Positions 13,376 to 62,541 of a DNA stretch of 64,000 nucleotides are shown here, in pieces; position 1 is the stretch's first letter, and every line of letters starts with the position of its first letter. Below the pieces are notes generated by a model, which ran no database searches, was not told the origin of the DNA, and worked only from the letters and a program-made list of their open reading frames with translations. This DNA is from Bryoerythrophyllum caledonicum (lineage: Eukaryota; Streptophyta; Bryopsida; Pottiales; Pottiaceae), in the NCBI GenBank assembly GCA_963971425.1, contig OZ020525.1, positions 5,005,560 to 5,069,559 on the forward strand, read 5' to 3'. A program made the translations under genes and the position numbers.

Positions 13376-13389
13376 TGCTTGCAATCTTA

Positions 13390-13450
13390 GGATTGCTAGT
13401 TTGTGAGCGGTGAGCAATGCTCACTGAGCGGTGGGACGTGAGCGGTGGAA
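13390..13450 (+). repeat. Left terminal inverted repeat of the 15.6-kb element
   Basis: The left end starts GGATTGCTAGTTTGTGAGC. It continues with GGTGAGC, GAGCGGTGGGACGTGAGCGG-type direct iterations. The left end of the second element at 54541 is nearly the same (GGAATGCTATCTTGTGAGC), which fixes the boundary. Confidence 0.75.
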
Positions 13451-15500
13451 ATTTGAGCATTGAATTGTCGGAAATTCGAGGATGATATTTTGTAGAAATT
13501 GGATGATTAACCGTGGAGATGTGGCAATAGTGTACCCAATTCCCGTGGAAAATTTGGAGTATCTTTGCCTATTTCTGTGGAACTTTTGCAGTAGTAGAGC
13601 CTGCAATATCCACATTTGAAACCTGGATTATGTTCTCTTGTTTTTGAAAATGCATTAAGATTTCATTTTTCTACTGAAATAAATTTTTGCATAAATCACA
13701 TTTTCGTAACATTTCAGTAGTTTATATTCTATGATTCATTTGTTTACTACATATTAATGCCTCGTGAGAAGTGTTTAAGCCTTAGGATTACAATCCTTAG
13801 AAGTTTAGAGGAGAAAATGATTAAAAAAAGAACCACCCAATATATTTTGAACATCATTCATCAACCTAAAAGTGTTTTAGCTATTTATAATTTAAGGTTT
13901 AGCTTATACTTAATGATAAATTGTATTAGGATTGAAGATATATCTACAAATTTTGAACTAGATTCAAAATTGGAGACATCAAAGAGCACCTCCTTTTGTA
14001 TTGTTGAAAGTTTAGTTTTTATGAAGGGGCTAGTTTTTAAGTTGTATGTAAGATTTATTCCACGGTACACCAATTATTTGCCACCTGAATGCCACGTGCA
14101 AGTTGTTTCAATGAATTAATTTCAAACATTGATAGGTTTGTAATTAACTTCCTCAAGAAACTGGGACCATTACAAACAATGGAACATGTGAAAATCTCCA
14201 AAACTAGAATTCAAACTCATCCTGCCATTGCTGCCCCATATTGTTCTAGGATTTAAACGGGAGATCGCAAATAACTGCGTGAGAGGACCTGTTGAAATTG
14301 TAGTTTCTGTGAAGGTCTTTAGGGTCTTTCAATTTTTATGTATGAATGATGCTATATTACCATCAATTTTTTCCTTTATAAAATTGAATTCACAATGTCA
14401 AGAACTATAATTTGTACCTTGCTTTGGATGGATGAATTTTGGGTGGCACCAATTTTCATGTACATCGACAAAAAAATCTTCCAACAATGGCGGGGTTTGA
14501 ACTGTTGATTTTGATCAACATTTGTTGCTCGTGAAACATAAATACATGCTAATAGTGGCAAATGAGGTGGCTCGGTGAGAACGCTGAAGACGTGGTGGGA
14601 TTTTTTGGCCACCATTTAATGTTTTGTTCATTTGAGTTGTAAGATCCAACAAATGATTTGTCATGCCAATTCAGGTAGTGCACAATATACTTTCTTAAGT
14701 TTTTTTTTCCAATTCATGGCATTTGCTAAAATGTTTAAGAAATAAATTTGTAGAAATTGGAGAAATTTTATACTATATCATGTTTATTCAATTACCATTA
14801 TAACCACGGAGAATATCGAGTTTTGCTCATGTTAGAGAATGGATTAAATCTACAAAGAGGATGAAATGTTAGACGGAGGATATAGAAGAGAAGTATAGAA
14901 AATAGGAGAGAAGTATATTAAAAACTAAGGAAATAGGAAACTAAGTTAAGAAGACAAATCAATGTGGAGAGAGAAAGGTTTTTTTGAAAATTAGAGGGAA
15001 GAAGAGTAGAATAGTGAAGGGAATAGAATAAGTACATGGAGGAAAGAGAAGAAATATATACAATGGAGAAAGAAGAGGAAGATGGAAAGAGAAAGAAAAT
15101 AAAATTTAAGAGGAAATAAGTAGGCTACAAATGAAAAAAGTTTTAAAAAATAAAATAGAACGAAGGAAAGTGAACAGTAGGAGAAAAATGAGTCACGAAT
15201 GGAAAAAACAAATACCGTTAATGGAAGAGTGAGTAATCGAGAACCGTTATACAAGGATGTGAATATTACATGGAGAACTTGGTTCAATGCCAAGAAAGCA
15301 TCTAGTCCTGTAGATGGTTGAGGTTGTCGGATCCAACAACTGTCACAAGAATTGGAAGTTTGAAATTTCTATATATTTGACAATCACACAAGACCAAAGC
15401 ATTATCACCAAAGCATATTAAGATAGCTGGGATCATTTTAACTTAAACAAGAGAATCGTAACACAACAAACGTAGTGAGTACGACCAGAGAATAACAACA

Positions 15501-18500
15501 CTACTGAAATGACGATGTAGATGCTTCTGAGAATTCAAGATCTACCTCAGCGTCAACATCAAGATACATAAAGACATCGGAGTTGTACTTAGGACGTGAT
15601 ATAGACGAGGAAGGCGGCGAGAACTGCAAAGCTTGAAGCCTCGCAATGTCTTCCGCATACGACGGAAGAACCCAAGTCTTCGAGGGGGAAACATACTCCC
15701 AGCAAGAATCAATATACATCAAACACAAACTTAGTAGAAGCTTCTTGATGAAAGAAAGGTAGTGAAGAGGAATGTTAGTGTACTCACTTACTCAAGATCT
15801 TCAAGTCTTGGCCTCTTCACCGCTGGAGGATGCATGGTCTTGGAAGTAGTTGGTGCCAAGGTTTTTTTTGCAATTGGAAGAGTTGCCACAGGTAATGCTA
15901 GGGTCTGCATTGAAGAAAGGACTGCTTCATACAACTCCTTCTCGCTTTCTAGCGAAAAGTTGTGTCTACCAGTAGCGTTGCAGGCACGAATGCTATTACC
16001 TAAAAAGAGTTCAATGTGTAATTAAAATAAATCCAGAGTAATGGAAAGAGAGAAATCAAAAATTCCTTACAACAATGAAGAGACAATAGATAGTATTGGA
16101 ATTACCTGTAGCAACTGAAACGTCAACCACCACATCGCCAGGGCGTGTCAGAGACAATATGAGAGAGGAAAAAAAGTACTCATCCTTCTCCCTTGGACCT
16201 CGCCAAGCGCGTTCTCCGTTCTTCAAAGGAGTTGTGCAATAATTGATAATGGTGTCATTGACACTAAGATCGTATCCCATGGCTAAGAGCTCTGGCACAT
16301 CTTGGAAAGAGAACTTGGACTTCCAGATGGTGGAATCTGCGGGCCGACGGACCCGTTTGAGAAGCAAGACCTTGAAAAGGTTGGTCGTAGTAAACTGAGT
16401 CTTTGCCGAAGATATAGGCAAGTGATTAACTCTCGTCCAATCCTTCAGTGCCTCAAAACCAAAAGCCCCATAAAATGAAGATATTTCATCAAGCAATTCT
16501 CCATTATCAGAGGGAAAAAATAGAAGCATTGCTCCGTCATCATGCAATACCTCATCAGCAAAATCAAAAAGTTCATCGAAGTACTGCTCATCACGAATGT
16601 TCCAGAATGGAACATCTGAAGAAGGATTTGACACATTGGGGACAGGGAAGCCTTCAGGGACATCTGTGATCACAAGATCAGCAGCGCCTTTCATCCATGG
16701 TTTCCCGCCACGTGTGCAAGACCGATTTGGATTGCACTCCAGAGCAAACCGACATGCATTATGAATGAAATCCCATTGTTTCAAAATAGAGGTGTTGAGA
16801 ATACGCACTTGGCAGGCCAAAGTCGACATAGTGATATTGGGCACTAGATTTGGCTTCTTCAAAACGGCAGAGATAAGGGTAACCGGGGAGCTCGTTGCTT
16901 CAGTCATGGTGGTGTCCTCTTCAGCTCCAGAATTCACAACGGAGGCCACCTTCGAAGCCCCAGCTGAGGATTTAGTCGGCTTTGCACCTTTTGCATTGCC
17001 CTTCTTTGTGGTAACCTCTGTCACAGATGCCCCCGTAGTAGGGCCCTTCTTCTTCTTTCCTGAGGATTTGTCGGCTTCAAGCAATGCCTCTTTCACCAAC
17101 CATGTATCTTCATCATTGTCTGATACCTCTGTAGATTGAGTTAGTAGACACTTTACTTCCTCCTCTACATCTGGACAGAAGTTCTTAGGACACTCCAGAT
17201 ACCAGCAGCATTCGCGGAAATGCTCCCTGGTATAGTTCTTCTTCTGTAGAGGATTGAAGATAAATGTCTCTATTGAAGAGGCGGGGTCGCACCAACTATG
17301 AACCATTGGTGGCAGCTTCTTGATAGCCCCAGCAGGTAAGAGTTCCCGCTTCATATACCTTTAAAACTCACGGAAATTGGTGTTAGAATTCAAAGAAGCC
17401 AAATTTGCAAATACAATGGAATTTGAACTCTAGCTCAATGGTGTGGGTAATGTAGAAGTACCTGAGGCAAAGCCGTTTCACTACTTTGTTGGCATCCTTG
17501 ACACTCTCAAAAGGTTTTCCCTTTTGATGCACCATGTCCCCTGTGAAATACCCGAAGAAAGCTTTGTCCCAAAGCGTAATCCGCCATGTCTCAACATAGT
17601 CTTCGAAGGACATGAAATCCTTTGAATTATCCACCCCACCACAAAGATCTAAGTATGGAATAAGCTCCTTCTTGGCCATCTCCTCAAGACCGGCCCAAAA
17701 TGACGCGCGAATAAGAAACTTCTTTAAATGGTCCTCACTAGCAGGGGGCTTTGGAAAGCGAAGGTCTTGTCTGACGCTTAATGAACTATTCCACCATTTG
17801 AGCCAGCGAACCTTATACTGTGGCTCAACCGATGAGGTTGCAATGAGTTGCAATTTTTCCAGGGTCATCTCAACCTTGGATGCAACATGGACGCTGTAGT
17901 GGAATATAACCTACAAAATCAAGACATAAAGTTTGTGAATGCTGCAATCACTTTCTTTCCCTAAGTAAATTTGGTAAGTATAATATCAATCTAAATATTC
18001 ATTGATTGAAGCATCAAAGACTCATCTTCCAAGAAACATTATTTGAAAAGTATAGCCATTCAAAGTTTTCAATACATCAGAGAATACATTGATTCAAGCA
18101 TGGCAAAAACTAAAGACAAGGGTGACTACTTTCAAGATCAGTCAAGCATGCCCAAAACTCATGAAATAGAGCAATCATAATTTAAATGGAACGGTATACT
18201 TTGAATGGATCATCAAATAGACTATAATTGTTCTTATGAGCCATACACATGTCCACAACATATATGTGTCTATACATAGGAGTTTGTGGGTAAATTATTG
18301 AGACAAGCAAATGCTTACCGGCCACCAATTCCACTACGTATAATTCCAAAGTGAATCAGATGTCTTGTTCAGACCTTCATCAATGGTTATTGGATCCAAC
18401 AACTCAAAATTCATACCATTGACAGAAGCTACTAATCATCTCCAAACATGAAGTCAAATCCAGCAACTGAGAATTATACAAATTAAGCTCTCAAAACTCT

Positions 18501-21500
18501 AACACAATCACGACGTGCTTAATATCTTCGAACTGGTTGTAGGATCCAACAACTAGGAACAACACCGATTCAACACAAAGAATCCTAACTATTTCATTGG
18601 CTACTTTTCATCTCAAAATCGATAGTTGGATCCAACAACTAACAAATATATTAACTTGGCACTCGTGAACTCTAACAGTGTCACCACATAGTCATCAACT
18701 CGAAACGGGTTGTCGGATCCAACAACCCTGAAAAAAATTTATCAAGTACTGCTCTTCTAAACCATGGCGAGAAATGTAATGTGCAATTTTATAGCATTGA
18801 CTACTGCTTGGCTAAAGAGTCCTTCTTGAAATATTGATTTTCTCGTTATTTTACCATCTCAAATCGATTGTCCGATCCAACAACATATAATTATATTGAT
18901 TTAGTACTCGGGAACTCTAACATTGTCACCACTGAGTCATCAACTGAAAACAAGTTGTTGGATCCGACAATTCTATTAAAAAGTTCCAAGTACTGCTCTT
19001 CTAACCCAAGATGATAAATCTTATGTGCTATTTCATAACATTGATTACTGCGTGGCTATATATTCCACCATGAAATATCGAAATAGTCGTTCTTTTATAC
19101 CAATTCCAGCTACTTTTACTACTAATTACAGATAACAGCCTCTTTAACTCCCTAAAATCTATCCATAAGCAAAATCACATACACTCTCCCCTGTTTATGA
19201 TGCTTGGTATGTAAATGTTCCCTCCTGTTGTCGGAACGGACATCTACTCATTCTGTAAATATTGCATGGTGCTCAAACTTTGAATTTAACTAAACGAATT
19301 TCACCATGAAGAAATGCACCATACTTTAATCACAAGGATCTAGGTTGTTGGATCCAACATCAAACATAGTCCAATATTTCCCAATGGTTCGATTCTAGAT
19401 TTGTTAACCCTAAGTCCAAGATCCTTCATATGATGCTTGATATGTAAATGTTCCCTCCAGTTGACGGATCCGACAAATACTCATTCTTAAAATATTGCTT
19501 GGTGATCAAACTTTGAATATAATTAAACAAATATCACCTTAAGGAAATGCACTGTACTTTATTCTCAAGGATCTAGGTTGTAGGATCCTACATCATATAG
19601 AGTCTAAAAAAGACCAAAGATAATCCAATTTTCATTAAAGCCTAGGTGATCAGAGTACTACAACAAATGAATCCAACCATGGATAAAGATGCCAAGCATT
19701 CAAACGACAAATAAATTTACCATGAGCACACAAGTAGATTAAAAATATAATCTTGAACTTAAGAATTTTGCAAGGAAACTTACTTGTTCCAATAATCCTT
19801 TGTATGCCGGATTTGCAATAGAGCTGCACTTGTTGAATAGATTGGCCAGCTCATCTCGTTTTTTAGTAACCACCTTCTCCACGTATTTGTGAAATCCTTC
19901 TTCACTTTGGTCAGCTTCCTCAACATCTTCGAAGTATGTTTGTCCGGCCTCTTGTGAGGCTTGGACAATTTCATCCTGATCCAATGTAATCCCGTTAGAA
20001 CCAAATAATAAGTACGACGCCAATATAAATATTGATATTGAACGTGTAGTTAACTTACTTGAAAAATAAAATTAACCATGAGATTCTTGGTTAAGGGATA
20101 CCAAGTTTTGATGGTCTTCGTTACACATGCTTTATATTGATCTTCTGTTAGCATTGGTTTATAATACTCCAGCTTGTGACTTCCGTACAGTTGAATACGA
20201 TGAAGCGTGTGCACCAATGTAGTTTTGACGTGAGCATTCTGGTTTGCCCTACACATTCAAGTATATAGATTAGATTCTCTGCACCAGGATTCAAAACATG
20301 AACAATAAATGAAAATATGAATTATGGCTTACTTGTTTATGTCGTGCAAGGCCTCTAGAATATCACCTTGACCACCGGATGTGTCCAAAACAACGCAATC
20401 CGGATTCCCATGCCTAGAGTGCCAATTAACATCCTCCGCATGCAATGTATCAATAACTTCTTTCCAAGCAAGCAATCGGTGATTGCCATCATAGACAAAA
20501 AACATGCTACCTGATAAATCTTCCAAATCTAGGTCTGCCAAGAGCCTTTTCTCAAATGCAGAATTTTCCTCAATCCACAAAGCACTCCAAGACTTCATGT
20601 CGTCAGTAGTAACCACCCGCTTCTGACCATTTTCATTGTATTCTGATACATACATGGCTGCTGCATGCGGTTGATAGCCAAATCGAAATGCACCCATTAA
20701 TTTGAGAATGTCAGATCGTAGGGTGGGTCTCACCAAAGGCATCGGGATCAGCCGACAGAGTGGAATCTTTATCAAAGACTTAGAGCTCGGAATCCGGCGC
20801 ATATTCTCGATCACCTGGAATAAGTTACCTTGAATTAGACCCTCCTGGAGTTTAAGTTCAGCATTTCGTAGATTCACGACTTGACGGCGAGCACGTTCCT
20901 CTATCCTCATGGGACTTCTCTGGATCTCCATAGGGGGGTTGGTTGGAGAAGGCTCCTCGCCTGCTAATGCTCCTCCTTCGTTTGAATGGATGCTAGTAGG
21001 TGTGTCGGTCTCAGGAGGGGTCCCCAAATGGGTTTGAAGTAACGGTCTTGAACGTTTTCGAATTAACAGCTCACCTGAAGACTCTTGCTCCTCTTCATCA
21101 AGATTTCCAGCGTCCTTGTCGATCAGAGAGTCCATCACGGCATCCACCATGTCATTCGTTGGAATTGAAGCTTCACTCAGCTGCTCAGCTTCTTCATATG
21201 AAGCCATCTACGCACACCAAATCATGTTGAAACCATATGAAGGCAAAGTACTTGTGCAATGACCAATTCTAGCGCCCTAGACTAGCTTTCAGATCTTCTG
21301 GTAATTATTGAGTTCACACAACTCACACTACGCATTGAAAGCACAAGTTATGCATGAACATAAATGATTGTTTGTGATCTCATTTAGAACACTCAAAATA
21401 TGATTCATCAAAATTATCGAAAATCAACACCAGTTTAAATACTGTTTCACATTTCATCACAGATTTTTGTCACACATGCATTTCGGTTCGCAGTGTTCAA

Positions 21501-23337
21501 TGATCAATGATCTGAAATGCAGTGTTTAATGATCCGATTCAAAGATCACTGAACACGACACATCGTGCATCCCTGTGATCAATGATCCGTGATTCAAAGA
21601 TTCGAGCATTGATCTAGGGTCATGAATCGTGGAGTCTTTGATTCCAGCATGGATTCCAGCAATGATCCGAAATAAACCTGGAGCAGTGATCAATGATCCA
21701 AATGCAGTGTTCATACGATCCGAAATGTAGTGTTCAGTGAACATCACACGATCAATGAACATTGATCACTGAACATCACACAATGAACATCACAGACTTA
21801 ATTAACATGAATCACTAAACATTAAATCATTCAACTTGGAGTTGGAATATCATTAGATCAATGAACTTTATCCAACTACAAAGGCAATTTCACGTCACTG
21901 GTTTTGCATACACATGCATTGCAACGCGAATCAAGTCTAATATCGACACAATGAATTCCAGGATTCAAAGACTCCACGATGTGATTGTCAGATCCTACAA
22001 CCTGAATTTAGAATTCCCAAAATCACGTTGGTTCACTGACAGCTACGACTTTTACATGAGTATCGACAAGTATCACATGAGTTACTACATGATTAAGTCG
22101 TAACTCAGCCATTACAACATGAATCATTACGCAATGAATCATTACGATAGGAACCATGTCGACCGAATCGTAAGTCAGCTACAACAAGAATCACATGAGT
22201 TCTAATGAACATTGAACTCCAGATATGGTGCTCTAATGATATTCCAGGTTCAGTATTCTCATGAACACTGATACTCGTATGTGCTACGACATGTATCACA
22301 TGAGTTCGGATCAGCACTACTCGTGCACCAGCAAGATCAACATTTTATGCAACACAAAATCCATGTACAAGTTCACGGTTTCACAGTTATCGGATCCTAC
22401 AACCTGAATGTACATGCACAAGTTCATATCAGTTTCAAATCCGGTCCGCAAGTCTGGACACAACACACAGTTTCGATGGTCCCTGTCGAGGATGGAGAGC
22501 TGCTCCTAGAGTAACGGTGACTCTGTCCTACGTTTTTTTATTAATTATCTTGCTTACAACCTGTCATTAGTGTTAGGTATAAGTAAGAAAAGCAAAAAGT
22601 TGAATGTTTTCATCATCCCAAACTATGTTTTCAGATCTTCTGGTTAGTTGCAATGGCAACACTGATTTTTTTTGAAACTGATGTAGGTAGATTCGTATTC
22701 TGCTTTCAAGCATGACTAGATTTCAGAATTGCTACTCGCTTGGCTAACGGACGCTCAGCACCTTAGCAGTTGCCGCAGATAATTCTCACTTGAGTGCTTA
22801 GATACACTCTAATATCGACACTCAATGATCTCACTGTTGGAGCCGACAACGGCAATTGTCACTATTTAAAGACCGTAGAATTCCTTCTTGATACATATTA
22901 TCTCACTAAGAACTTGTTAAGTACTAAACACTTCAGCTGTAGAGTTCCAGGTTTCATGTGATCTGCAGGTATACGGCGTCTAAAATCGGGAAGACGATGA
23001 AGCACTTCAGCCACTACAATTTAATATTCAAGCAAACTTCATATTGAACCCTAAGTGCAATATCATCTTTAAGCAAACCAGAAACTTGAACCCTAAGAAA
23101 TCATTTCTCGGACTTCACTTAAGAAGCATACAGATCTGGATTTCATGCTTACCAGAACGGCTCTTGGCTCTTCCGCGGTTCCACTAGCCTCACCTCCACA
23201 ACTGCCACCGCTCAAGATCACCTGCATCAACGTCTATCAACAAATTAGACTCTACACTCCACAAGTCACACGGTACACCACAAAGCTGACCTAAGTTCCA
23301 AAAAGCAGACGCTTACGGCGTTCTGAACCGGCGGCAT
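15501..23337 (-). CDS. ParB/Srx-like domain fused to beta-class DNA methyltransferase
   Basis: Core exons, in order: 21207-20333, 20248-20059, 19975-19784, 17910-17462, 17358-16106, 15999-15792, 15729-15501. All introns are GT-AG, and the phases sum to 1131 codons plus TGA with no internal stop. Two probable 5' exons (23337-23317 with an ATG, 23221-23153) also join in phase and would give 1161 aa. Numbering from ATG 21207: an acidic/charged N-terminus, then a ParB/sulfiredoxin-like domain at about 147-292 with VYDGNHRLLAW; a helical middle (355-700); methyltransferase motif IV at about 801 (DLVITDVPEG); motif I at about 976 (GDVVVDVSVATGNS), then a GRH and an acidic residue. The IV-before-I order is the beta-class arrangement of bacterial and phage N6-adenine/N4-cytosine enzymes. 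The DPPY motif is altered, so activity is uncertain. The gene is divergent from the transposase gene. Confidence 0.8.
21420..21830. repeat. Short GATC-containing interspersed repeats
   Basis: This stretch is upstream of the core ParB-methyltransferase ATG, inside the proposed first long intron. It is dense in atgatccg, tgatcaatg and cagtgttca units in both orientations. Open frames across it are by-products of the repetition. GATC recurs far above chance by eye. Confidence 0.6.
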
Positions 23338-25075
23338 AGAAATTGTGAAGACGCAGGGGAGTTTGACGACCAAGCGACGATAGACTATGAGGAGCACCGG
23401 CTCAACCCAGAGTTCGAGGAATCTTCGTTCTTGGTGAGATGGATGAGAAAAGTCGACAGGAGTACCAGGTCATGTAAGTACCATTTCCTCAACCCTCGGG
23501 TTGCTCCACATTAAATCTAAGTGCATGACTCCACAAAATCCCAAGAAAATGCATCCATTCAGTGGTATAGCACCTTGGATTTCGATGACTATTTCAAATT
23601 CAAATCTACATAAGATGTCATTACTCTACATATACAACTGAACTTACTAGTCTAGACTATAAATTTATTGCTTAACCATCCTAATTATTATCTTATGGTT
23701 CTGATATTTTAAATGAATGCATGAGTTCTAAAAAGGATTTTTATCTTTTAAATATCAATCACTGTCACCGGGGGGCATAATATTCAACATGTATGGTGCC
23801 GTATACTGATATTACAACTGGTACTGAAACTGAAATGACCACCTCATTAAAGATGTAAGGTGAAGAACCTTCAATCTAGAGGTGTTAACCCTAAATCCAT
23901 ACGTTTTCGTCCAAAGTACTTCATTGTTTTTATCCCCAAACGTTATGCAGGAATTGAATGTATAGGCCCCAAAATAAAATTAATGAAATACTTGAAATGA
24001 ATTCTCTACTTTAGCAAATACAACGTGTTAATTCATGTAATGTTAACAACAACTCAAAGGCAAATAAGATAACCAAATCTTGCCTGTGCTTTGGTTGACT
24101 TCGTGTTTCCAACATCTGGGTCTTCTAGCTCCGATCTTCCACCATTTCTTCCACTTGTTCCACGTCTATCTCTCCCACGACCTCTCCCCCCCCAATGAAA
24201 CTTGTACTCCTTCAAATCCTAAAGAGTCGACAAGTGAAGGCTCTACTTCTTGATTAAAATCTATCGCTCGAACTGTATCAGATATACCCTCAAACCTCTT
24301 GCTTGCAAGCCTCATCCTAGACCTCTTCAACTCCCTCCGCGAGGAAAAAACAGCCCGACGCCTCCCTCTCTTTCAACGGGGTTCGCCCACTCTAGATGAA
24401 TACTCTTGCATTTGTCTTAGAAATGAAATGATCTAACCAGAACCCCATTTTCTATGATATACTCTCCCATTTCATTCACCATCATGTACAAAAAGCAACA
24501 ATTGGAACAACATCAACCACGGGACAAGATGTACCAGTGGACCAATAAAAAAATCGTGTCGCTAATACGGCGATCTGTTTTAGAGCTACCACGTTTTGTT
24601 AGCAACCAACTATTTATTGCATACAAAGAAACACCATACACTCTGACATATCTAGTAAAATCTATACTGGAGTATTACAATAAATCATAGCACTTTCCAT
24701 TACATTACTCATTCTTTCATTAGATCATTTTCAAATCTTGAATCTTCTTGTCTAATTAGGGACTTCTAACCTTCATCCCAACTCTATAATGGAGACTTTT
24801 ATTACTCTTTGAACCGATACACCTAAAATCATTTTTGAAGGAACAACTGTCAGCAGCTGTCATTGCATCGTGCATCATCTAATAGTAGATACAACGTATA
24901 GTGCGTTTACTATCTACTAAATCTAGATTTTTTGTCCGTCTAACGTCACGCCGTTCCATGATGTGCCCCTTTTCTCAACTTCAAGTCTTCAAGAAATACA
25001 ACTGCTCCACAACACTTGACACTCTCTTTAGGCTTCCTCCCCACCTTTTGACTCTTCTCAAAGTTTGGCTATTCA
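23338..25075. promoter_or_regulatory. Divergent intergenic region between the two element genes
   Basis: The ParB-methyltransferase gene leaves leftwards from about 23337 and the transposase gene starts rightwards at 25076. This 1.7-kb gap should hold both promoters. I see no clear TATA box, no 18-bp palindrome and no supported ORF. The second element has the same divergent layout (61290-62541). Confidence 0.45.
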
Positions 25076-28000
25076 ATGGCAACACTTAGAACTGATGATC
25101 ATTTCATTCCAATCCGAATCCCTTTAGGAGTTGATGGGCTTGCCTTGGTTACTTCATCGCTCCTTGCACTTCGTTTTGGCTACCGTGTAGATACTATCCA
25201 TATAGAGGAAGAGGTTTTAGATGATGCTGGAAATATCAGCTACACCATGCTTCAACTCAGTATACTTGTGGATGACCAAAAGACTTGGTTTTTGAACGAG
25301 GGTACTTACAAAGTGATCGGTTTGACTGACTTGCAGATGCAGGCATCTACGGAGATCTTGACGCCTGGGAAATCCACCACTTCCAGTGTCAACCCGGTGT
25401 TTAACACTCCACAGAGGGGCGCACCAGATTCACCCCCGGCTTTCGTACATCTTACTCCTGCTTCTCCCATTCATATCTCGGACAACGAAGATGACTTCCC
25501 TGAAGAAGATATCGGAGCGCGTACTCCTTCAACCCACAACCCGCCATTGGCGTCCATGCACTCCCAACATCAACTTCATCCGACTCCATCTTCCACATCA
25601 CGGCCCCCTCTGCATCTCCAAACCCTAGAACGCACTAGTGTTGTGGCGTGTTTGAAGAGTCTGGCCTCTAGGCCGGGGATGAAGAACGCGTTGAAGACCA
25701 TCAACTATGCTACAGCGCCCCACAGGAAAGTGGACTTCCTCTCCTCCACGTACAACGGTGATGTCATCTTCGAGTTGCCTCCTACTTCTATGGACGCCAG
25801 CACCTCCAAAGCTAAAAACATGCAAGGTATGGATAAAAAATACGACGGCCATTGTTGGTGCCTTACAAAGACTTCAAACATTTCGAATGGAATGGGTCTC
25901 ACTTTTAGGAGATCCTCTTGTTCTGGACATCTTCGTTGCGATAACATGGAATGCGATTATTTAAAGTGCCCCAATAGAGAAGAGCCTTTCAACGAGAAGG
26001 AGTGGGTGGGGAACAACCCTATGCCAGTTGGGCCTGGGGCTCAAGCTCCCAAAGGTTCAACTCTAGTATGTAAGGTATGCAAAACCCCGCCTACCGTTAT
26101 TGCTACATGTAATGCCATTATCTACTACGTCCAAGGACCTGCATGGATGACTCGTGCTTGTGTGCATATTGGCACCCATGACCACCCTGTTGCGTTTGGA
26201 ACATGTCGAGAGTCCGAGGCAAAGATCAAGATGTTATTGGGTGAACACGTGGAGCGAAACCCATTAGCTACGAATTCAGCTATTGCGATGGCAGCAAGCA
26301 AAGAGTTCCTTGCTGAACATCTCATTCGTCCCCTAGAATCAGAGAAGACCATGACAGTAGAAGATATGAAGGACGTCATGGAAAAGTATGCCAACCTCGC
26401 CTCTCCAAACGTCAAGAATGCCATCTCATCGTTCAAGCAGGTTGGACGCACTGGAGCAATGGATGGCATCCGTCAGATGAGGGGGTGTACAACATGGCCC
26501 TTTGTCCAGCGAAATATGTTTCCCGGTCAAGGAGGTGACAAGGATAAAGTCTTTGTATTTAAAATGAGTGAGATAGGACCCGGCTCAGGCGTTGATCTTG
26601 TGACAAGGATGCAAGCCGGCGGAGACTTGCAAGATGCGTGGCTCATGTTTGATCATGTCAAACGCGTCAAACAGTGGACCACTATGGCCTGCCATGTGTA
26701 CGATTCCCAGTACTGTAGAGTGATGACGATCGCCGTGTGTGACATGCAATCTGAAGATACGGAGGCCCAATGTCTCATGTGGAAGGGAATCAACGAAGTA
26801 ATGGCCAGAAATGGGCTCAATTCAATCAACTTCAAAGGATTCATGGCAGATAGCGCTGGTGCAAACTGGAATGCTGTGAGGAAGATCTACGGTTCTGGTG
26901 ATCCGCAAGAGGTGATGGCCGATCGTGAGCGCACTTGCCTCCTTCATTGGACTACCTCCATGAATCGCCACACGGACAAGTACATCAAGAATGAGTTCCA
27001 GAATCAGCATCGTCTTCTATGCAAGCAGTACAAGGATTCTAAGACTTCAGCCGAATCCGAAGTTCGATACCTTGCAATTCGGGCATGGTGGCAATCCTGT
27101 GGAGCTCCAAACGATGAAGCTCTTAAACAGCTTGGACAATGGCTCGCATTTTGGCACTACCGCTACCGGCAATGGGGTGCCTCCATGCAAATGGTAAGAG
27201 TCCTTTGAGAATCTGAAGTATTTTAGTCGTATTGGTTGTTGGATCCACCAACCTAAATCCTTGTTGTTGACATGTATTCCACAGGACCTCACCGATGAAG
27301 AACGGGCTGAAATGCCATCTTGTAATTTGGCGGAGTCAATTCATAACCGTTGGCTTCAACAGTCCGGAAACAAGGGGAACGACTTGTACGATGCAACAGT
27401 GGACGACTTCGTACGTGCATTCATGCAATGCACTAACTATTTTCAGTTCTTGAAGGGAGGGCGCTCCGGTAGTGGACCCTCCAAGCAGAAGTTGCGACTA
27501 CGCCATGCCTAGAGAATGGGAAAGCCCGAGAAAGTTGTTGAAGCTCTTCATTGCATGTCTGGAGCTAAGGAGTGGTGCACCCGTATGCCTCATTTTGAAG
27601 GAGAGGAAGTCTTTGGGTCTAGCAAGTGGAAGCTTGACCTTCCACTTGGATCCGAGTTTGACAGCCACCGCCCGGACAAGATGAACTTCTCCCATCCCAA
27701 AGTCCCTACGAGATCCACTAGAGCACGCCGGGAGAGTGCGCCTTCAGCCCTTGATGTATCTCTCCCTTCTTCTCCTACTTCCTCAGACGACGTCCAAATC
27801 ATGTCCCCATCGGCATCAGCACCTATGGTGTCTTTAAGGGTTACGCATGTCATGAGCGTCCATGAGTCTGAGTGCGATTTGAAGAAATGGCACATTGCTC
27901 GACTCCCTAAAAATTCAGGGAAGAGTTGCTTTGCTAAGCAGGCCCGGACAGGAAGGACGTGCAAGGAGAAGATTGTGCGCCTGGGTAAAAGTACTCCTAC

Positions 28001-28733
28001 TCCTACTTATTCTGGAATTCTACACGTTCGAAGGACATTGAAGGACCAGGTCATGGAGTTCTTCCACTGTGCGGACGACATCGAACGTTGTGTAAAGGGA
28101 ACGAAGAGGAAGTGGGTGAACCACCGACCTCCTGTCCCCACAGTATGGCCTGTGCTGAAGGGCACTAATCTCACGAAGGCTGAGATTCTTAGACTGGAGG
28201 AAGCTGGATTCCAGCTTGAAGAACACCGAGAAGTTTCACCAAGGCGTCTCTTTGGAGACGTATCCAATCGAGCAGCACATCCTAGTGCTATTCCACTACC
28301 TTCCGAACCCAATGCACATCCAACGACTCGCGATTGTCGCCACATTCGCCGTCTCCCAAACGCCAAGGTCTCGGTGAAGCAGAGAAATCGTTGGGAGTCA
28401 GCTGGTATTCTCGATGCTCGCATCTCGCAGATTATTCCAATTCCGTATCCGGCTAATGGATGCATCATCTTACTTCACTCAAAAAAGGCGCAGACTACAG
28501 CCGAGTATCGGTTGACAATCGGCCCTCTCCCCGATTGTTCTTGTGCAGATTTCAAGGACATGTTGGCACGGACCAAAAAGAGAGGCGCTTGGTACCACTG
28601 CAAGCACCTCTACTACATCTTCCGTGTGGTGTGCAATTTCGATCACGAGGATGACCATTTTGTCCATGCCCCCACTTTCAGCTTCAACGAGATCAAGAAA
28701 GTCATGGACAAGGGAGTCAATCGTTTCCTGTAG
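25076..28733 (+). CDS. MULE-like DDE transposase with SWIM finger, one internal TAG
   Basis: Exon 1 is 25076-27193 and exon 2 is 27285-28733, joined by a GT-AG intron in phase 0 (about 1188 aa). Exon 2 has one in-frame TAG at 27510-27512, after which the frame stays open to TAG 28731. From the N-terminus: a variable acidic and proline/serine-rich region; a GCM/WRKY-like zinc region at about 250-350 (SSCSGHLRC, CDYLKC, VCKVC); a catalytic RNase H-fold region with WLMFD at about 522, FMADSAGAN at about 590 and the CLLHW (CxxH) motif at about 620; and a SWIM finger at about 1124-1146 (CSCADF ... CKHLYY). These features are typical of Mutator-like transposases. The ATG matches the start in the homologue at 62542. 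The lone stop may inactivate it or be read through. Confidence 0.8.
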
Positions 28734-28917
28734 AGGATACCAAAAGCACATACACTACTATAGGTCAAATTGACAGTCCTTATGTTTTGCAAATGAAGGC
28801 CTCAAAAATCCGACAACCCACGGTTATAGGCAGAATTTTATTTTTAATAATAGAAATATTTGAAAAAATATTCGAATATATTTTTATTTTTAGTAAAAAT
28901 TATTAATTTTTAGTAAC
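28734..28917. other. Transposase 3' flank, no gene
   Basis: A short AT-rich stretch from the transposase stop to the right terminal inverted repeat. It holds a palindrome half-site (atccgacaac) near 28807. Confidence 0.4.
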
Positions 28918-28977
28918 TTTCTGCTCACCGCTCATGAAATCACCGCTCACCGCTCATTGCTCACAAACTAGCGTCGT
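28918..28977 (-). repeat. Right terminal inverted repeat of the 15.6-kb element
   Basis: Read inward on the minus strand it starts ACGACGCTAGTTTGTGAGC and continues AATGAGCGGTGAGCGGTGA. It pairs with the left end through GCTAGTTTGTGAGC and the shared GAGCGGTGA iterations. The first five outer bases differ between ends. Confidence 0.75.
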
Positions 28978-28991
28978 TGCTTGCAATCTTA

Positions 28992-29637
28992 TTATAGGCA
29001 ATTTATTACTACCACAATAACTAAGAAATTACTAAACTAACACTGTATAATGACTCAAAATAAACTACATAATGACTGAAAATTAACTGCATAATGACTA
29101 AATAATAAGTAGACAGTGTACAAAAAGTCTATCAAATAACTGTAGAATGACTGCATTCAAACCATATGGTTCCCAAACAATAACTAGAACAAAACTAAAA
29201 TTAGTACATGCATATCTACTATGGGTAAATTTACACTACAAGAATAATTAAAAAATTACTAAACTAACACTGCACAATGACTAAACAATAACTAGGCAGT
29301 TCACAAAAAAACTATCATTGTCCACATCATTGTCCACGTCAACTGCCACGTTTAATTCCACGTCACTCAAAAATCCACATCATCATCCACCATAAATTCC
29401 ATGTCACACTCAAATCCACGTCAGTAGCCAACTCATCAATGTTCGAGGATGATGGGCCACATAGGCAGATGGATGAGAAGTCCACGTGGCAAAAAGAATG
29501 ACTACAGAAATCTATTACTCAAAACTATTACTGTGCCCGAACAAAAAAAATTTTAGTCATTCCTTAGTAATACAGGTCATCTATGACTTAACAATGACTA
29601 AAATCGCTAGTCATTGATGCCTCGATTTCCCGTAGTG
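28992..29637. other. CACTA right arm, no gene
   Basis: The right subterminal region of the CACTA-ended element holds many taactac/aatgactaaa motifs. A block around 29010-29110 is partly repeated at 29240-29300. No ORF is supported. Confidence 0.55.
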
Positions 29638-54540: not shown

Positions 54541-54600
54541 GGAATGCTATCTTGTGAGCGGTGAGCGGTGAGACGTGAGCGGTGAGCGTTGAGGGGTAAC
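54541..54600 (+). repeat. Left terminus of the second large element
   Basis: Starts GGAATGCTATCTTGTGAGC, then GGTGAGCGGTGAGACGTGAGCGGTGAGC-type iterations, closely matching 13390-13450. Confidence 0.75.
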
Positions 54601-57600
54601 TTTTTGAAGTGCATCCACTTCAAAAATGTTACTATTAGTAAATTGGAAGGAACCTCAAATTCTATAATATAGTAATGATTTTGATATCATGATGAGAAAT
54701 TTAATAAATTTTTTGTTAGGACTCAAGAAGAAGAGGTCAGAGGAAACCCTATATCTGCAGACGCTGTCTATTGTGGAAGGTTAAAAAAACTGGCCTAGGA
54801 ACTAGAGTAAACGACGACACCCGGCAAAACCCCTATAATATCCGTTAAAAGTACAGGGTATCGTAGTGAAAGTAAAGGTCCCTAGTGGGTAGAGTATCAG
54901 AAAAGAGAAGGGAAATTAGTAATATTTCATTCGAATAAAGAACGGGAACGAATTTGGGGGTTCTGGGTAGAGCAGAAAATATAACAAAATATATTGGAAA
55001 TTCTTGTGATGTTTGGAATTGAAAGGATAATAACACAGTGAGTTGAAGCTGTGGCGGTGGATTTGGCAAAGATTTAAAGTGAAGTAGAAAGTTCAAGAAA
55101 TGAGAATACAACCGTAATAGAATTGTTCACGAGATTGAAGGAAGAGTGTTCGTGGGAAGAATATTGTAGTGGAATGGGAGAAAACCACAACGAAGGAAGA
55201 GAAGCAAAGAATACAAAGAACAAAGATAACAGTTGAGAGAAAATGCTAGGATAGCCGTGTCACCAATAAAATTGTTGCGATGAAATACGGGTCGCACGAA
55301 AAGCATCTAGGATGATGAGTTACAAATACTATTCGACAATGAGAGGCCATTGTCCGAGTCCTCTAAAGCCTCAAGATCAAGAAAGTCATTAGATGGAAAA
55401 CGAGAACTAGTGGAAGTTGAAGCTGATGATGGAGAAAGCACGTCTGCCATCTCGTTTGCAGCTTGGCCGGCATACGATGGAAGGAAGAAATCACGATCCG
55501 GTGAAGCAGCCAACGACATCAAACTGAAGACAAAAAACGACATCAAATTAATAAAACTGAATGAAAAATCAAGAGAAGTTGAATACAAAACAAGACTTAC
55601 TTACTCAATCGATTTCTCTTTGTGATCTTCCAGATTGGGGGATCTTCATCAATGGTGAGGTCCACGGTGGCCGGAATAGCGGAACTAGATCACGGCGGCT
55701 TGGGCATGAAAAGAGGCTTCAACAACGCCTCAAAAACCAGCTTATCGGATTCGAAGCCAACGAAATGCTGACCAGTAGCGCGACACGCACGAAGGGAGTT
55801 CCTTGGAAGAGAAGAAATGCTTAGAACTGTTCATAGGGATTACGTGATAAACAAATGTGGGAATGAAAGATAAACATGAAAATCACAAGATGATAGATGA
55901 TGAGATACCTGTAGAAGCAAATGCATCAAAAATTGCACCACCCGGCTTTGTGAGAGCCTCGAAAAGCATCTGAAAAAAAATAACGCCTTTCTCTCTTCCA
56001 GCCCTCCATGGAACAGCACCTCGCATAGACTGGGTACTGAAGTCGTTGTGATTGAGAAGGACGTCCGTCTCTTCGACTCCCCAACCTGTCTTTGAAAGCT
56101 CACTATTCACAATGAATGTGAAGGACTCCAATGGTAATGCAATTCTCACGTAGAGAAGGATCCGAAAACGGTGGGTCTGAAAAAAATATGAAATTACAGA
56201 ATATCGTTAGTAGGTGAAACAAACTAGAAATCGGAGTCAGGCAATGATAAATTAAGACTAACCTTCTTGGTTGGATCAGTGGGCAACGCCAATGGTAATT
56301 CGTTCACACCCCACCAATTACGGAGTAGCTTGAAATCGTATGCAGCAGCATATGACCTCACGTCGGTGTGGAGCTGCACAGACTTTGGAATGATAACGAG
56401 AATGCAGCCTTGCTCATGAAGGAACGACTCAGCGAACTCAAAGAGTGCCTCAACAGCTTGCTCCGAATACACATTCCATGGTGGGATGTCCATTGCGTCT
56501 CGCGAAATTGATGGAACCCGCAACCCCTGTGGGATGTCTGTGAGAACGAGATCAAAACCTTGGTGGGGACATGTTCCGCTTCGTGCCTGGTTCGACGTCA
56601 GAGGTAACACCTGCAAGAAGAAATCATGAATAGTAATTTTAGTAATGAGAGAGCTAAAACAGATGAATTCATTCATTGGCAAAAGCTAACCAAATACCTA
56701 TTCTGAGGTCGGGGACTAAAATAATACTGAGTCAGGAATGAAGACACCGAGGTACTGAATTCCAGCGCGGCCAACGGCACTCCATGAAGATCCAAAATAA
56801 AACCAAAAGAAGTAACAAAACATGAAGAACATTAGAGTGTAGGAGAGAAGATGGAGAACACTCACCTTAAGCATGAATTCGTTCAGTCGAATCATGCAAG
56901 GATGGTCCTTCCCACCATTCATCATATCCTGCAGAGTCGAAAGCTCCACTCTGATACCCATCTTTGGAGCTGACGCGCTCGGTAGAGAGAAGGCGTCATG
57001 AAACGCCTTCCGTTTCACCACATTAGCCGGCTGACGCGGGGGGGAGTCAGGTACATCGGGAGACGGATGATCATCTTGAAAGCTCTCACCCGCAGCAGGA
57101 ATTGTGACGGCCGTGGTGACTGATGGTGGAACAAGAACCTCAACATCAGGGTCGCGAGACGATGATCCCCGGGCCTTCTTCAAGGCAGCTTTGCCCTTAC
57201 CCTTAGCTTTGGTAGCCATGGCAGCCCCATCGACAGTGGACTCCACCCCAATCAGCTCGGGCTGAAGGCCATCACGCAGTGAGATGTCGAAGTGAGGAGG
57301 TTTCTAAATGGGGCAGTCGAGATACCAACCGCAGCGCTCCCAGTACTGTGGTCCCCAATCCTTCTTGATTCCCTCAGATAACATGGTGGATGTGCTCTTG
57401 GAATCAAGGTTCGATGCGAAGAAGGGAGGGTTGCGGGTCACAACTCTGGCCGGCATCAGAATGAACTTAAAGTACCTGAATAAGGTATGTCGCAACGCAG
57501 AGGGGAACCCGCACTGATCCGATGATTCATAGTTCTTGTGCACGCCTTTGTCCACATTAAACTCATGAAAAAAGGCGGTCTCCCACAGTTGAATGCGCAT

Positions 57601-58447
57601 CTCCTCAATGTAGTCGGCAATCCTTGTGATTGGCTCTCCACCATCGGGGTCATAATTCACATCAACGTCAATATCCAACAGAGAGCCTTCCAAAAGCTTC
57701 TCTCCTTCGAAAGACAACTGCGAAGAAATGAAACGAATTAGAATGTAAACTGGAACTATTTAGTTGGGAAGTTTCAGAAATTCACACTGAAATTACCTGA
57801 GCCCACCAAGTAGCGCGGTGAAGCCACTCATGGAAATCACTGCCGGGAAACTTCGACTTCGGAAACCTAACAGATTCTCTCAGATTACCATCCCCGTTCC
57901 AATGCTGTAGCCATTTAACCTTCATTAACGGATCCATGGCAGAGGTTGCGAGCATGCTGAGCTTCTCTTGGTTCATCTCAGCGTCGTCATCATGAGCTTC
58001 GTAATGGAGCTTCACTTGACTGAGGAACGCTGGGGTGTGCTTGGGATGAGCGATTGGAAGCTGCTTCCGAAGCTCTGAGAGTGTGGACAACTTCATCTTC
58101 TCTACAGACTTTCTGACAAAATTCTGCGCATTCGTTGAGGTCCATTCCTTGGGATCAGGAAACCTCTCCACAAACTTTCGTTGCGCCACGGAAGCAGCTT
58201 CACCAATCTCTTGCTGTGACAGACTTAAAGTCAATTGAATGAGTCAAAACAGATACGAAAACACGACGTCCGGAAGTGCATAATCCGTAAACGATCAGGA
58301 TTCCGGATACTAGCTCTAATACTATGGATACGTAGTGGGTCAGATCTAATCCAGGAAATCTTCATACAACCAAGAAATTGGATGTGAATAAATGGATGGG
58401 TCCCGGTTTTGAGAGCAGGAAAGTTGTCAGCAAAATGTGATCCAAGG

Positions 58448-58897
58448 GGTGTGCCGTTGGCGGCACACCTTTGGGAGCACAATCCACGTTTTAAAAAAGG
58501 ATTTGTGGATTGTGCTCCCAGGGGTGTGCCGTTGGCGGCACACCCTCTGTGAGTAGAGCTTCTCTTTCGAAGCTCTACTCACAGAGGGTGTGCCGCCAAC
58601 GGCACACCCCTGGGAGCTCACTCCTGGTCCTAAAGAGGGATCAATAGAGTTGGCTCCCAGGGGTGTGCCGCCAACGGCACACCCCTGAGAGCTCACTCCC
58701 GGTCTTAAAGAGGGATCAATAGAGTGGGCTCCCGGGGGTGTGTCGCTGGCGGTACACCCCTGAGAGCTCACTCCTGGTCCTAAAGAGGGATCAGTCGAGT
58801 GGGCTCCCGGGGGTGTGCCGCTGGCGGCACACCCTTAGTGAGTAGAGCTTCGAAAGAGAAGCTCCACTCACAGAGGGTATGCCACCAGCGGCACACC
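58448..58897. repeat. Intronic array of a 22-bp palindrome
   Basis: Seven copies of GGTGTGCCG, four bases (TTGG, CCAA, CTGG or CCAG), CGGCACACC start at 58448, 58523, 58587, 58662, 58737, 58812 and 58876. Spacing is 75 or 64 bp. The central bases alternate in orientation. Two 42-bp hairpins (ctctgtgagtagagctt with its complement) lie at 58545-58586 and 58834-58875. The array fills the intron between the exons at 59044 and 58213. Two diverged copies (GGACTGCCG...CGGCACTCC type) are at 60389-60410 and 60451-60472. Confidence 0.9.
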
Positions 58898-60560
58898 CCT
58901 GGGAGCTCACTCCGAGTCCTAAAGAAGGATAAGTAGAGCTCACTAAGAGCAGTCCTTTCACTGAGATGCCGATTTCATATATCCAATTCAATCAGTTGTC
59001 ATAGATTGAAATATACCAGAAGCAAATATGTCTGAAGACTAACCTGATACAAGACACTGTTTAAGGATTTAAGTGTCAACGTGTACCACATTCGCTTGAC
59101 AGAATTTTGCTTCGCTTCAGCTGCCATGATTTCGGCTTTCGAAACAAGTCTTTCGAAGTAATTGAGAGGCTGCTCCGCCATCCCTTGAATGCGGTATAGC
59201 TTGTGGACAAGATTCGTTGTAACGAACGACTTCTAGTTATGCCTGTAGACAAAGATCAATGGCCATTACAAAACCGTCAATAAAATTCAATAGCGTATAC
59301 AGCTGAATCAGCAGAAATCCTCACCAGTTGACTTGATGAAGCGCAGATAGGAGGACTGGAACGTATCCATTCACATTCAGCACAATAGACTCCACCGCAT
59401 AATGCCAACGTCGATCATCCCCATGATCTCGGTTGATGATCGGCAACCATGCCTGGAGCCGGTGATTTCCATTCCAGACATGAAACATCTTCCTTGAAAA
59501 TACTCTTAAGTCTGGATCCAAATTCAGTCTCTACTCGAACGCCTCGTTCGCTTCAGTCCAGGCTGGACTCCAATTCTTCATGATTTCCTCTGAGACATCG
59601 ATCGACTTCCCCTCATGGTTCTCTTTCGCCACATAGAAAACACCAGAGCCTTCCATGTACCCGTTCTTTAGAAAGTGAGATCCTAGCCCCTGGACATCGT
59701 TCTTCAAGTATGGCCGAACGATTGGCAGCCCAATCATTCTGCATAAGGGGATGTCAAGCTTAGATTTCTCCTTTGGCTGAAATCGGAGTCCATCAAGCAG
59801 CGCCGTGGTGTTGACTGTCTCTTGAAGAACAAGATCATCCATTTGTTTCTCTAGCTCCGCAGCAGAGAGTGGTTCAGCTCATCTTCTCTCCGACCTTGAG
59901 ACTTCAACCCCCTCACTATCTGCACCATCATCATTCAACCTCTCCAAGGAAGAATTCCATGTCCAAACATTGATGTTAGCGGTGAATTTATTAGTCAAAT
60001 GATATTTTCAGCAGATTACCTAATTGGTGCATAGCTGAGTTGTGAGTGTCTAATTCTGTCTCGGACTAGCTTTGAATCTCTGCAATGCACCGACACAGAA
60101 TATTAGATGCCTTGCTGGAGAGAGAAATTAGAATGAAGTGGAAAAAAGGGAATTTGACATCAAAATCCTAGCAAGTAGAACAGGAATCAGCAAGCAATTC
60201 GCCAATTCCAATCCCTACATGCTTACAGAATGTCAAAGAATTAAGGTCGTTACTTTTGATTGATGGAATTCGGTAGCTACTGATCTGCAATGTAGGTGCG
60301 CTCATTGGCAGCAATCTACATGCTAATTTTCCTTAGACCCAACTTCCGCCTCGAGCCTTCTAATGTCTCAAAATATACCTGCGCGATAGGACTGCCGCTG
60401 CCGGCACTCCACCCGGCGAAACCCCCTAATGTAGACAGGACTTTGCGAATGGAGTGCCGGCAACGGTAGTCTATTCGAGCACGCTTCTCCACTATCACTA
60501 CGAAGATAAAGTTATTCAGTCTTATGATTAACTTATTCATCACAAAAATTTGGCAAGCTT

Positions 60561-61289: not shown

Positions 61290-62541
61290 GTCCATATTGC
61301 TTAGTCAAGAATTAGGTCAGTCGCCGGTTAATCAATCCATGTTCACGAAGAGATGTTCTACTGTTCCTAAGACGTCGTCCTCAGTGAATGACATGGTTTG
61401 AAATACCAAAAGAGATTATGAACTTCAAACGATAGATCCAAAATCAAGCTCTCCTCTTACACTGACTCTCAATGAAGTTCAACTATTTCAAACCTCTCAA
61501 GTCAAAACTAAGCACTCAAATCTCTTGTCCATCACGATGTTCGCTCATACAATCCAGTCACTCAAGTACCTGTACGACCTTTCAGTTCCCTCACTTCAGG
61601 ATCTAATTGGGTCCACTCACTCATTTCTGCTTTTGCAAGTTCCTTGGCATCCTCCGGCAAATGGCGGCTCCCAACAAAACATTCGGGAATTACACTAAGA
61701 GCAATCCTCTCTCTATTATCTCTAATCTAAACTTCTTCAAAGTCTAATTTCTTTGAAGTTTCGCCGAAGGAATCCTTGGACTTCCCCATCGCAATACCTC
61801 TCCCTACTCTACTTCTCATCAATGTCTTTCGATCACTAAAATAGAGCTTCTGCTTTCGTCTTTTCATAATAGCAAGAGGCACATCGGCAAAGATAGCTCT
61901 CATAAGTCCATGTGGAATGGATTCAGATATTCTCCCTCGCTTAAAAAGACGTCAGCTATGCCCTTACTGGCAAACTCTCTTTACACCTTAAACTAATAGT
62001 GTTGCGCAATATTCTGTGCCCCCACCTTTAGGCGCCAGCTCCTGCCAGCATGAATGAATCGGGCCGGCATTGCCAAACTAGTTTTCATTAAGTTCACCAT
62101 AATGTGATCTAACCGCCAGATTCACTTTATTGCAGTGCCCCCATACTTCTTAACGTCGTCCTATTCATTTTGTATTCCACTATCATAAATTTAGTGTACC
62201 AAACCACGACTTCAATAAAAATCATTTCTGTTTAACGAACAACTCATATCCTGTAATGTGGAACGACCTTAAAACATAATTCCTAAATTGTCCGGACTTC
62301 AATTTATTACAATGAGATCTGCTACTCATAAATACCTATCTTCGCCACCAAATTTGTTGCAAGGGAAGTCGCTCTTGACGGCAAGAGATATGTTTAAATT
62401 TAATCAACCGTAAATCTAGCTAGTGCATTAATTTTTAGCTGGAGCATATGACCGTGCCGTGCTTCACCTCCGATTCAATACAAGAAGTTGCACTTGTTCC
62501 GTCCACCCTGTTTTCATTTGCAGCTTTGTTGATTGCACAGA
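61290..62541. promoter_or_regulatory. Divergent intergenic region of the second element
   Basis: The gap between the two divergent genes has no supported ORF and should contain both promoters. No TATA box is convincing. Confidence 0.4.

Follow-up and report, generated by a model that had tools for sequence, protein, structure and literature searches.

Results

The element and its genes

The window, a stretch of 64,000 nucleotides of contig OZ020525.1 of the moss Bryoerythrophyllum caledonicum, contains a transposon of about 15.6 kb (element 1) with two divergent genes, a transposase-like gene A and a multi-exon gene B. The following features were assigned to it:

13376..13389, unstranded: 14-bp direct repeat, left copy (candidate target-site duplication)
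13390..13415, +: left terminal inverted repeat, GGATTGCTAGTTTGTGAGCGGTGAGC
15501..15729, −: gene B exon 7, encoding the C-terminal tail
15792..15999, −: gene B exon 6, in which methyltransferase motif I ends, with the motif II region (motifs named by eye)
16106..17358, −: gene B exon 5, encoding the linker and the greater part of the beta-class methyltransferase domain
17462..17910, −: gene B exon 4
19784..19975, −: gene B exon 3, with a homologue in sister element L078
20059..20248, −: gene B exon 2, portion following the ParB-like core, with a homologue in L078
20333..21207, −: gene B exon 1, with the start ATG, encoding the ParB/sulfiredoxin-like domain (core at about 20335-20823)
25076..27193, +: gene A exon 1, transposase-like; by eye, a Cys/His cluster at the N terminus and a portion of a putative DDE domain
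27285..28733, +: gene A exon 2; by eye, the putative remainder of the DDE domain and a SWIM-like motif, CxC...CKH
28952..28977, −: right terminal inverted repeat
28978..28991, unstranded: 14-bp direct repeat, right copy

The bounds 13390..28977 given in a preliminary description were borne out by both kinds of repeat. The terminal inverted repeat CTAGTTTGTGAGCGGTGAGC occurs in the window at 13396 (+), 28952 (−, 2 mismatches) and 54547 (+, 2 mismatches), with a mean of 0.00 occurrences in 100 shuffles, and the flanking 14-bp direct repeat is perfect and abuts 13390 and 28977 exactly; in a chance control with 2000 random pairs of 50-base stretches from the window, 4 pairs had a 13-mer in common. 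With respect to MULE-type termini, inverted repeats are present and the flanking repeat, a single case, measures 14 bp as against the 8–11 bp of MULE target-site duplications (PMC6446971, cited here from excerpts, as are PMC12477816 and PMC12704722).

For the DDE/SWIM transposase described before, DDE-like and SWIM-like CxC...CKH motifs were found by eye; Pfam did not recognise the transposase, the search of gene A yielding no match to a MULE DDE domain. The gene A copy of element 1 carries an in-frame TAG at 27510-27512. For gene B, the seven exons joined in phase without a stop, as had been claimed, and with GT-AG borders, resulting in a product of 1131 aa.

A second element with the same two genes in the same order had been reported from 54541 onward, and homologues of both genes were indeed located there in the same divergent order, both of them damaged:

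54547..54592, +: left terminal repeat of element 2
55720..59908, −: gene B homologue, motif IV T-D-I-P-Q-G, stop-damaged
62533..64000, +: gene A homologue, truncated by the window end, in-frame stop at 63544-63546

Depending on the piece, gene B of element 2 shares 27-47% amino acid identity with that of element 1; a stop interrupts its reading frame directly ahead of the ParB motif, and its stop-to-stop frame starts at 59530, inside the alignment to element 1. The gene A homologue, aligned from 62575, is 38% identical to gene A of element 1.

Coupling of the two genes in the genome

For element 1 the coupling analysis covered 63 of 73 transposase matches and 130 of 137 ParB matches, leaving out ten secondary transposase pieces, among them a 42-residue piece at 88%. 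At 85% identity or above there are 29 transposase matches (including the window's own); a divergent ParB exon accompanies 28 of these, in 26 cases at a distance of 3.6-4.9 kb, and one match at 87% has no ParB partner among the matches listed. Below 85%, 33 of 34 have no partner among the matches listed and the remaining one has a ParB exon 13 kb off; conversely, 14 of the 42 top ParB matches are without a transposase among the matches listed. For the element-2 transposase, 119 of 120 matches were compared with 88 further, lower ParB matches, and 13 pairs are separated by no more than 15 kb, 11 of these being divergent, where 0.7 would be expected by chance in any orientation; 108 of the 119 have no divergent partner among the ParB matches listed. 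Since the ParB matches listed are a capped set and miss true partners (that of element 2 and that of one sister), the absences are uninformative and do not speak for coupling either. All copy numbers are lower bounds, with 100 of 3121 candidates scored for exon 5, 134 of 1757 for exon 1, 63 of 3240 for gene A and 119 of 2009 for the element-2 gene A.

The possibility that sister transposases at 70-84% lack gene B was dropped for the one sister that was read: in the 73% sister element (L078), exons 2 and 3 of gene B match expectation in place, strand and order (E 9e-10, and E 1e-6 with a best control of 0.25).

Within gene B the two domains travel together. The 32 best ParB matches, which were unselected, were all accompanied by a methyltransferase exon (32/32). 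When 50 of the 137 ParB matches were used, 49 were paired, the last eight having been chosen for a nearby methyltransferase match; the methyltransferase side comprised most, though not all, exon-5 matches and eight stretches that pass the Pfam PF01555 cut-off (see below). Altogether, the coupling of gene B with the transposase recurs across many copies and four subfamilies.

Selection on gene B

That the fusion gene is kept under selection, as previously proposed, is corroborated by the decrease of pN/pS in both parts, from 0.75 to 0.12-0.18 in the ParB core (29 exon-1 loci) and from 0.73 to 0.20 in the methyltransferase part (30 exon-5 loci). Purifying selection shows in comparisons between lineages and not in those of the closest copies. 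The exon-1 sample consisted of 29 of the 30 best of 137 matches, one of differing length being dropped, and the exon-5 sample of the 30 best of 103 matches; stop codons, which occur in several of these copies, were left out of the counts.

Large transposons frequently carry unrelated genes, and gene B might accordingly be a passenger, a piece of a host or foreign gene that does nothing for the element. The recurrence of the same gene in the same divergent position in four subfamilies and the purifying selection between older lineages argue against a passenger, which we disfavour as highly improbable.

The ParB-like domain

The claim of a ParB/sulfiredoxin (ParB-CTPase) fold is supported by structural comparison of the predicted exon-1 model. 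In the structural re-alignment, 29 of 31 rows are ParB, Noc, KorB, PadC, Spo0J, SerK, SbnI or sulfiredoxin, and the other two are uncharacterised proteins. The exon contains the following motif:

20473..20490, −: D-G-N-H-R-L, with G-N-H-R invariant among the aligned rows

GNHR is invariant in 11/11 rows of alignment A1 and in 29/29 exon-1 copies examined, and, placed on the P motif by eye, it supplies the conserved P-motif arginine of the ParB fold, whose mutation abolished NTP binding in ParB-fold proteins (PMC12704722). Pfam did not recognise the ParB exon of the window copy, and over 11 ParB-exon rows Pfam and PHROGs gave no clear ParB call, with DUF1015 in 2/11 (best 0.0072) and a ParB-like phrog in 1/11 (at 0.2). 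With Foldseek the exon had no hit reaching E 0.001, and unrelated chains appeared from rank 25 down.

The methyltransferase-fold domain

A beta-class methyltransferase fold was found, with motif IV ahead of motif I as described before, in the predicted model, whose mean pLDDT is low (46.9) with block means of 62-84 across residues 221-310. All 50 structural neighbours listed are DNA or RNA amino-methyltransferases, with CcrM and MboIIA as the nearest solved relatives and with MTA1 and METTL3-METTL14 among them. By sequence, a profile search matched the methyltransferase part weakly to CcrM (E 0.0055), the one match on which the motif IV alignment rests, and a PDB search with single gene-B exons gave CcrM at E 1.7 and otherwise nothing of note. 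The whole window protein scores 20.8 bits against Pfam PF01555, below the curated cut-off of 26.7 bits, which is passed by eight L001-type stretches of the same genome (28.4-30.6 bits); PF01555 was also found in 3 of the 14 members of alignment A2 (best 3.6e-7).

One may ask whether motif reading and models of low confidence have produced both domain assignments spuriously, given the silence of Pfam on the window's ParB exon, the Foldseek result and the low mean pLDDT. Against this stand the 29 named ParB-fold or sulfiredoxin rows, the uniform set of amino-methyltransferase neighbours and the profile match to CcrM, and of all explanations considered we judge this one the least probable.

Motif IV

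The catalytic motif IV of beta-class DNA amino-methyltransferases reads (D/N/S)PP(Y/F/W). The window gene B departs from it, with TDVPEG at this position:

16650..16667, −: motif IV in degenerate form, encoding T-D-V-P-E-G (CcrM: A-D-P-P-Y)

Motif IV is degenerate in four of the five subfamilies read (DVPE, DIPQ, AEIPD and AQVPD, where CcrM has DPPY): the aromatic residue and the first proline are lost, and even the Asp is not constant. The fifth subfamily, seen in L001, L002, L003 and L006-L008, has IDQPF; since this retains the Asp and an aromatic residue, some gene-B members may be active.

These data bear on the view that gene B encodes a working N6-adenine or N4-cytosine DNA methyltransferase, guided to the element by its ParB-like domain and marking it for shielding or for control of transposition. 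The beta-class fold with CcrM and MboIIA as nearest solved relatives, the PF01555 matches in A2, the selection on this domain and the IDQPF subfamily are consistent with it, and the authors of the Ectocarpus study proposed something close for their protein (PMC12477816). However, the degenerate motif IV of the window and of three further subfamilies and the sub-threshold Pfam score of the window protein weigh against it, and we consider active methylation doubtful; the DNA modification suggested by the preliminary description was not borne out. A variant would have active and inactive subfamilies pair, the IDQPF type being the catalyst and the DVPE and AQVPD types its non-catalytic partners, by analogy with METTL3-METTL14 and MTA1-MTA9. 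Several motif IV states do coexist within one genome, and the structural neighbours include MTA1 and METTL3-METTL14; even so, such pairing seems quite improbable to us.

Discussion

We favour, with a probability of roughly 0.6, the reading that large DNA transposons of one superfamily have since ancient times possessed gene B as a selected accessory gene, whose product combines a ParB-like domain with a methyltransferase-fold domain that is mainly pseudoenzyme-like. The captured prokaryote-type modification module envisaged before stands as to both folds, the coupling to the transposase and the selection, but not as to active DNA modification. The capture is not a recent one, because the gene pair is common to elements with transposases only 38-55% identical.

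As to mechanism, the ParB-like domain may bind nucleotide and load on, or recognise, element DNA. With the aromatic residue and first proline of motif IV lost, the methyltransferase-fold domain of the window family would mainly be a SAM- and/or DNA-binding, pseudoenzyme-like module. The protein might act with the transposase on the element ends or guard element promoters against host silencing, roles modelled by analogy on mudrB or VANC of MULEs. More tentatively, and as a possibility only, a ParB-type nucleotide-dependent DNA clamp joined to a non-methylating module that recognises or flips bases on element DNA could make up a selfish ParB system in a eukaryote, serving as an element-specific factor for transposition or against silencing and diversified into many subfamilies in one genome.

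The gene architecture has precedent in the excerpts of PMC12477816, in the Sola1 element of Ectocarpus and in red and green algal cases. Sola1-1_Ec32 carries an accessory protein with ParB and DNA methyltransferase domains, and similar green and red algal transposon proteins are cited there (Iyer et al. 2011; Petroll et al. 2025, Bostrychia). Compared by description, both are large DNA transposons (21.5 kb versus 15.6 kb here) with the accessory gene on the strand opposite the transposase, and the proteins, with ParB-like and N4C/N6A-type methyltransferase domains, measure 1104 aa and 1131 aa. Like the algal accessory proteins, the gene-B product unites the two domains, and its gene lies opposite the transposase gene of a DNA transposon. 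Sola1-1_Ec32 differs in being called Sola1; the transposase of the element described here has SWIM-like and DDE-like motifs, seen by eye. A degenerate motif IV across several subfamilies is a feature of the present elements, and the Sola1-1_Ec32 passages are silent on motif IV.

Phages and prophages likewise possess fusions of a ParB-CTPase fold with an N6_N4 methyltransferase (PMC12704722), the same two domain types joined on mobile DNA, although prokaryotic. In MULEs, second genes beside the transposase (mudrB, MutB and VANC) have roles in integration, DNA binding or anti-silencing (PMC6446971); they differ in that the excerpts mention neither a ParB nor a methyltransferase domain for them. 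Our literature search found the ParB-methyltransferase architecture in a transposon described only in PMC12477816, as far as its excerpts and those of the other papers go. The whole gene-B product, compared with 5.8 billion proteins, had no match at E 1e-3 among the best 7994 candidates by shared words, and a search of viral contigs with the ParB alignment gave five pattern matches, none of them a relative; the methyltransferase alignment offered no conserved stretch for such a search.

What had been the report of a single element becomes a testable two-gene transposon system with many close copies, several deep subfamilies and an accessory gene under selection, and the motif IV data make it questionable to assume that proteins of this kind modify the DNA that encodes them. 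Should gene B turn out to be a ParB-like clamp or an anti-silencing factor, parts of prokaryote-type partition and modification systems would be working tools of eukaryotic transposons.

Bounds and gene content of the element

The preliminary description had placed a transposon at 13390-28977 of the window, and this element (element 1) is borne out with exact ends, each marked by an inverted repeat and an abutting direct repeat. The inverted repeat, CTAGTTTGTGAGCGGTGAGC, is found at both ends of element 1 and again at 54547, where a damaged relative (element 2) starts, as compared to a mean of 0.00 in shuffled sequence; the direct repeat adjoining both ends of element 1 is perfect over 14 bp. 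Two genes were modelled in element 1:

25076-28733, plus strand: gene A, two exons, transposase-like
21207-15501, minus strand: gene B, ParB-like and methyltransferase fusion, seven exons, 1131 aa

All seven exons of gene B could be joined in phase with GT-AG borders, as had been proposed for its core. Gene A had been described as a DDE/SWIM transposase; it is indeed transposase-like, with motifs resembling these recognizable by eye, but a Pfam search of gene A recognized neither MULE nor SWIM. Since these Pfam matches are missing and the single flanking repeat measures 14 bp, membership of the element among the MULEs is unproven. The element 1 copy of gene A contains an in-frame TAG. In element 2 homologues of both genes are present in the same divergent order, as previously claimed, with 27-47% identity, and stops were found in the gene A homologue as well as in the gene B homologue.

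Several copies of a GGTTGT(C/T)GGATCCAACAACC-like palindrome lie in the introns and the spacer of element 1 (window 15318-22404 and 27232-27264); these could be candidate protein binding sites of the element.

The remainder of the window contains the following features:

3048-5852, minus strand: Ty3-type retrotransposon pieces (Pfam Retrotrans_gag 1.1e-8, aspartyl protease 1.3e-6)
29598-30753, plus strand: hAT-type transposase fragment (Pfam DUF659 1.1e-30), immediately adjoining element 1
32073-33386, plus strand: open frames, the first without Pfam match, the second with a weak protein-kinase match (4.4e-4)
39251-39832, 44029-47101 and 48388-49704, plus strand: long open frames, mutually similar by eye

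The DUF659 match is what we take to be a hAT-type transposase of the plant type. The three mutually similar frames, one of which gave no match in Pfam, are perhaps gag-like parts of a repeat.

Copies and coupling of the two genes

The search of the moss's own genome (437 Mb, 894 contigs) yielded copy counts which represent lower bounds: at least 73 matches for gene A exon 1, at least 137 for gene B exon 1 (the ParB exon), at least 103 for gene B exon 5 (linker and most of the methyltransferase domain) and at least 120 for gene A of element 2.

Among the matches listed, a divergent ParB exon was found beside 28 of the 29 transposase rows with at least 85% identity, the window's own included. 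The gap between the two was 3.6-4.9 kb in 26 of those 28 rows and 16.6 and 20.4 kb in the other two. For transposase rows below 85% identity a ParB partner was listed in only 1 of 34, located 13 kb off, and for 14 of the 42 top ParB rows no transposase row was among the matches listed. In one of the partnerless rows below 85%, the 801 bases at the expected place hold gene B exons 2 and 3 in the expected order and strand (E 9e-10; in a second comparison, 1e-6 versus 0.25 for the best match in an unrelated 25-kb control), indicating that gene B is present in this sister element too, in a more diverged form which the ParB search had missed.

For the element-2 type, 119 transposase rows were compared with 88 further ParB rows, and 13 pairs were located within 15 kb of each other, where 0.7 would be expected by chance. 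Eleven of these pairs are divergent, and ten of the eleven belong to one class of transposases sharing 53-55% identity with the element 2 transposase. The other 108 of the 119 rows lack a divergent ParB partner among the matches listed. In both comparisons the listed ParB matches were obtained with gene B exon 1 of element 1 as query and do not include element 2's own gene B.

Selection on gene B

For exon 5 (30 copies) the median pN/pS was 0.83 among the youngest pairs and had dropped to about 0.25 among older ones. By region, the methyltransferase part decreased from 0.73 to 0.20, with the linker never falling below 0.42. In exon 1 the ParB core went from 0.75 to 0.12 and the N-terminal tail from 0.76 to 0.27; at the greatest divergence the values were 0.18 and 0.44, respectively. 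In all of these comparisons the pair counts are not independent because pairs have copies in common. The drop with divergence in the ParB core and the methyltransferase part corroborates the earlier proposal that the fusion gene is kept under selection. Judged from these sequence comparisons, pN/pS falls as it should for a gene on which propagation depends, i.e. with constraint along the transposing lineages and relaxation after insertion.

Possible function of gene B and relation to known systems

Motif IV of the predicted methyltransferase domain is degenerate in four of the five gene B subfamilies read (e.g. DVPE). Six own-genome loci (L001-L003 and L006-L008) constitute a subfamily in which it reads IDQPF. 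The motif I frame of this subfamily is uninterrupted, whereas the others have an intron there. It is possible that gene B encodes an active methylase, above all in the IDQPF subfamily, where enzymatic activity has its strongest candidate.

The kind of system, a transposon with a ParB and methyltransferase protein, is already known, as in the Ectocarpus Sola1 element (PMC12477816, which also cites red and green algal cases). Relative to the literature searched, in which the cited algal relatives are represented through the citing paper, the SWIM/DDE-like carrier, with its motifs assigned by eye, appears new. The same applies to the coexistence of several subfamilies within a single genome, to the constraint measured here and to the degeneracy of motif IV.

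The two genes occur together in four subfamilies, two folds are predicted and constraint is evident. Most likely, the gene B protein would combine a ParB-like nucleotide-binding DNA module with a SAM-fold module and work on the DNA of the element. In ParB-fold proteins NTP binding requires the arginine of the P-motif (PMC12704722), and this residue appears to be retained in the predicted ParB-like domain of gene B. By analogy with mudrB, which has a role in transposition, and VANC, which acts against silencing (both from PMC6446971), the task of gene B may be either transposition itself or the countering of silencing.
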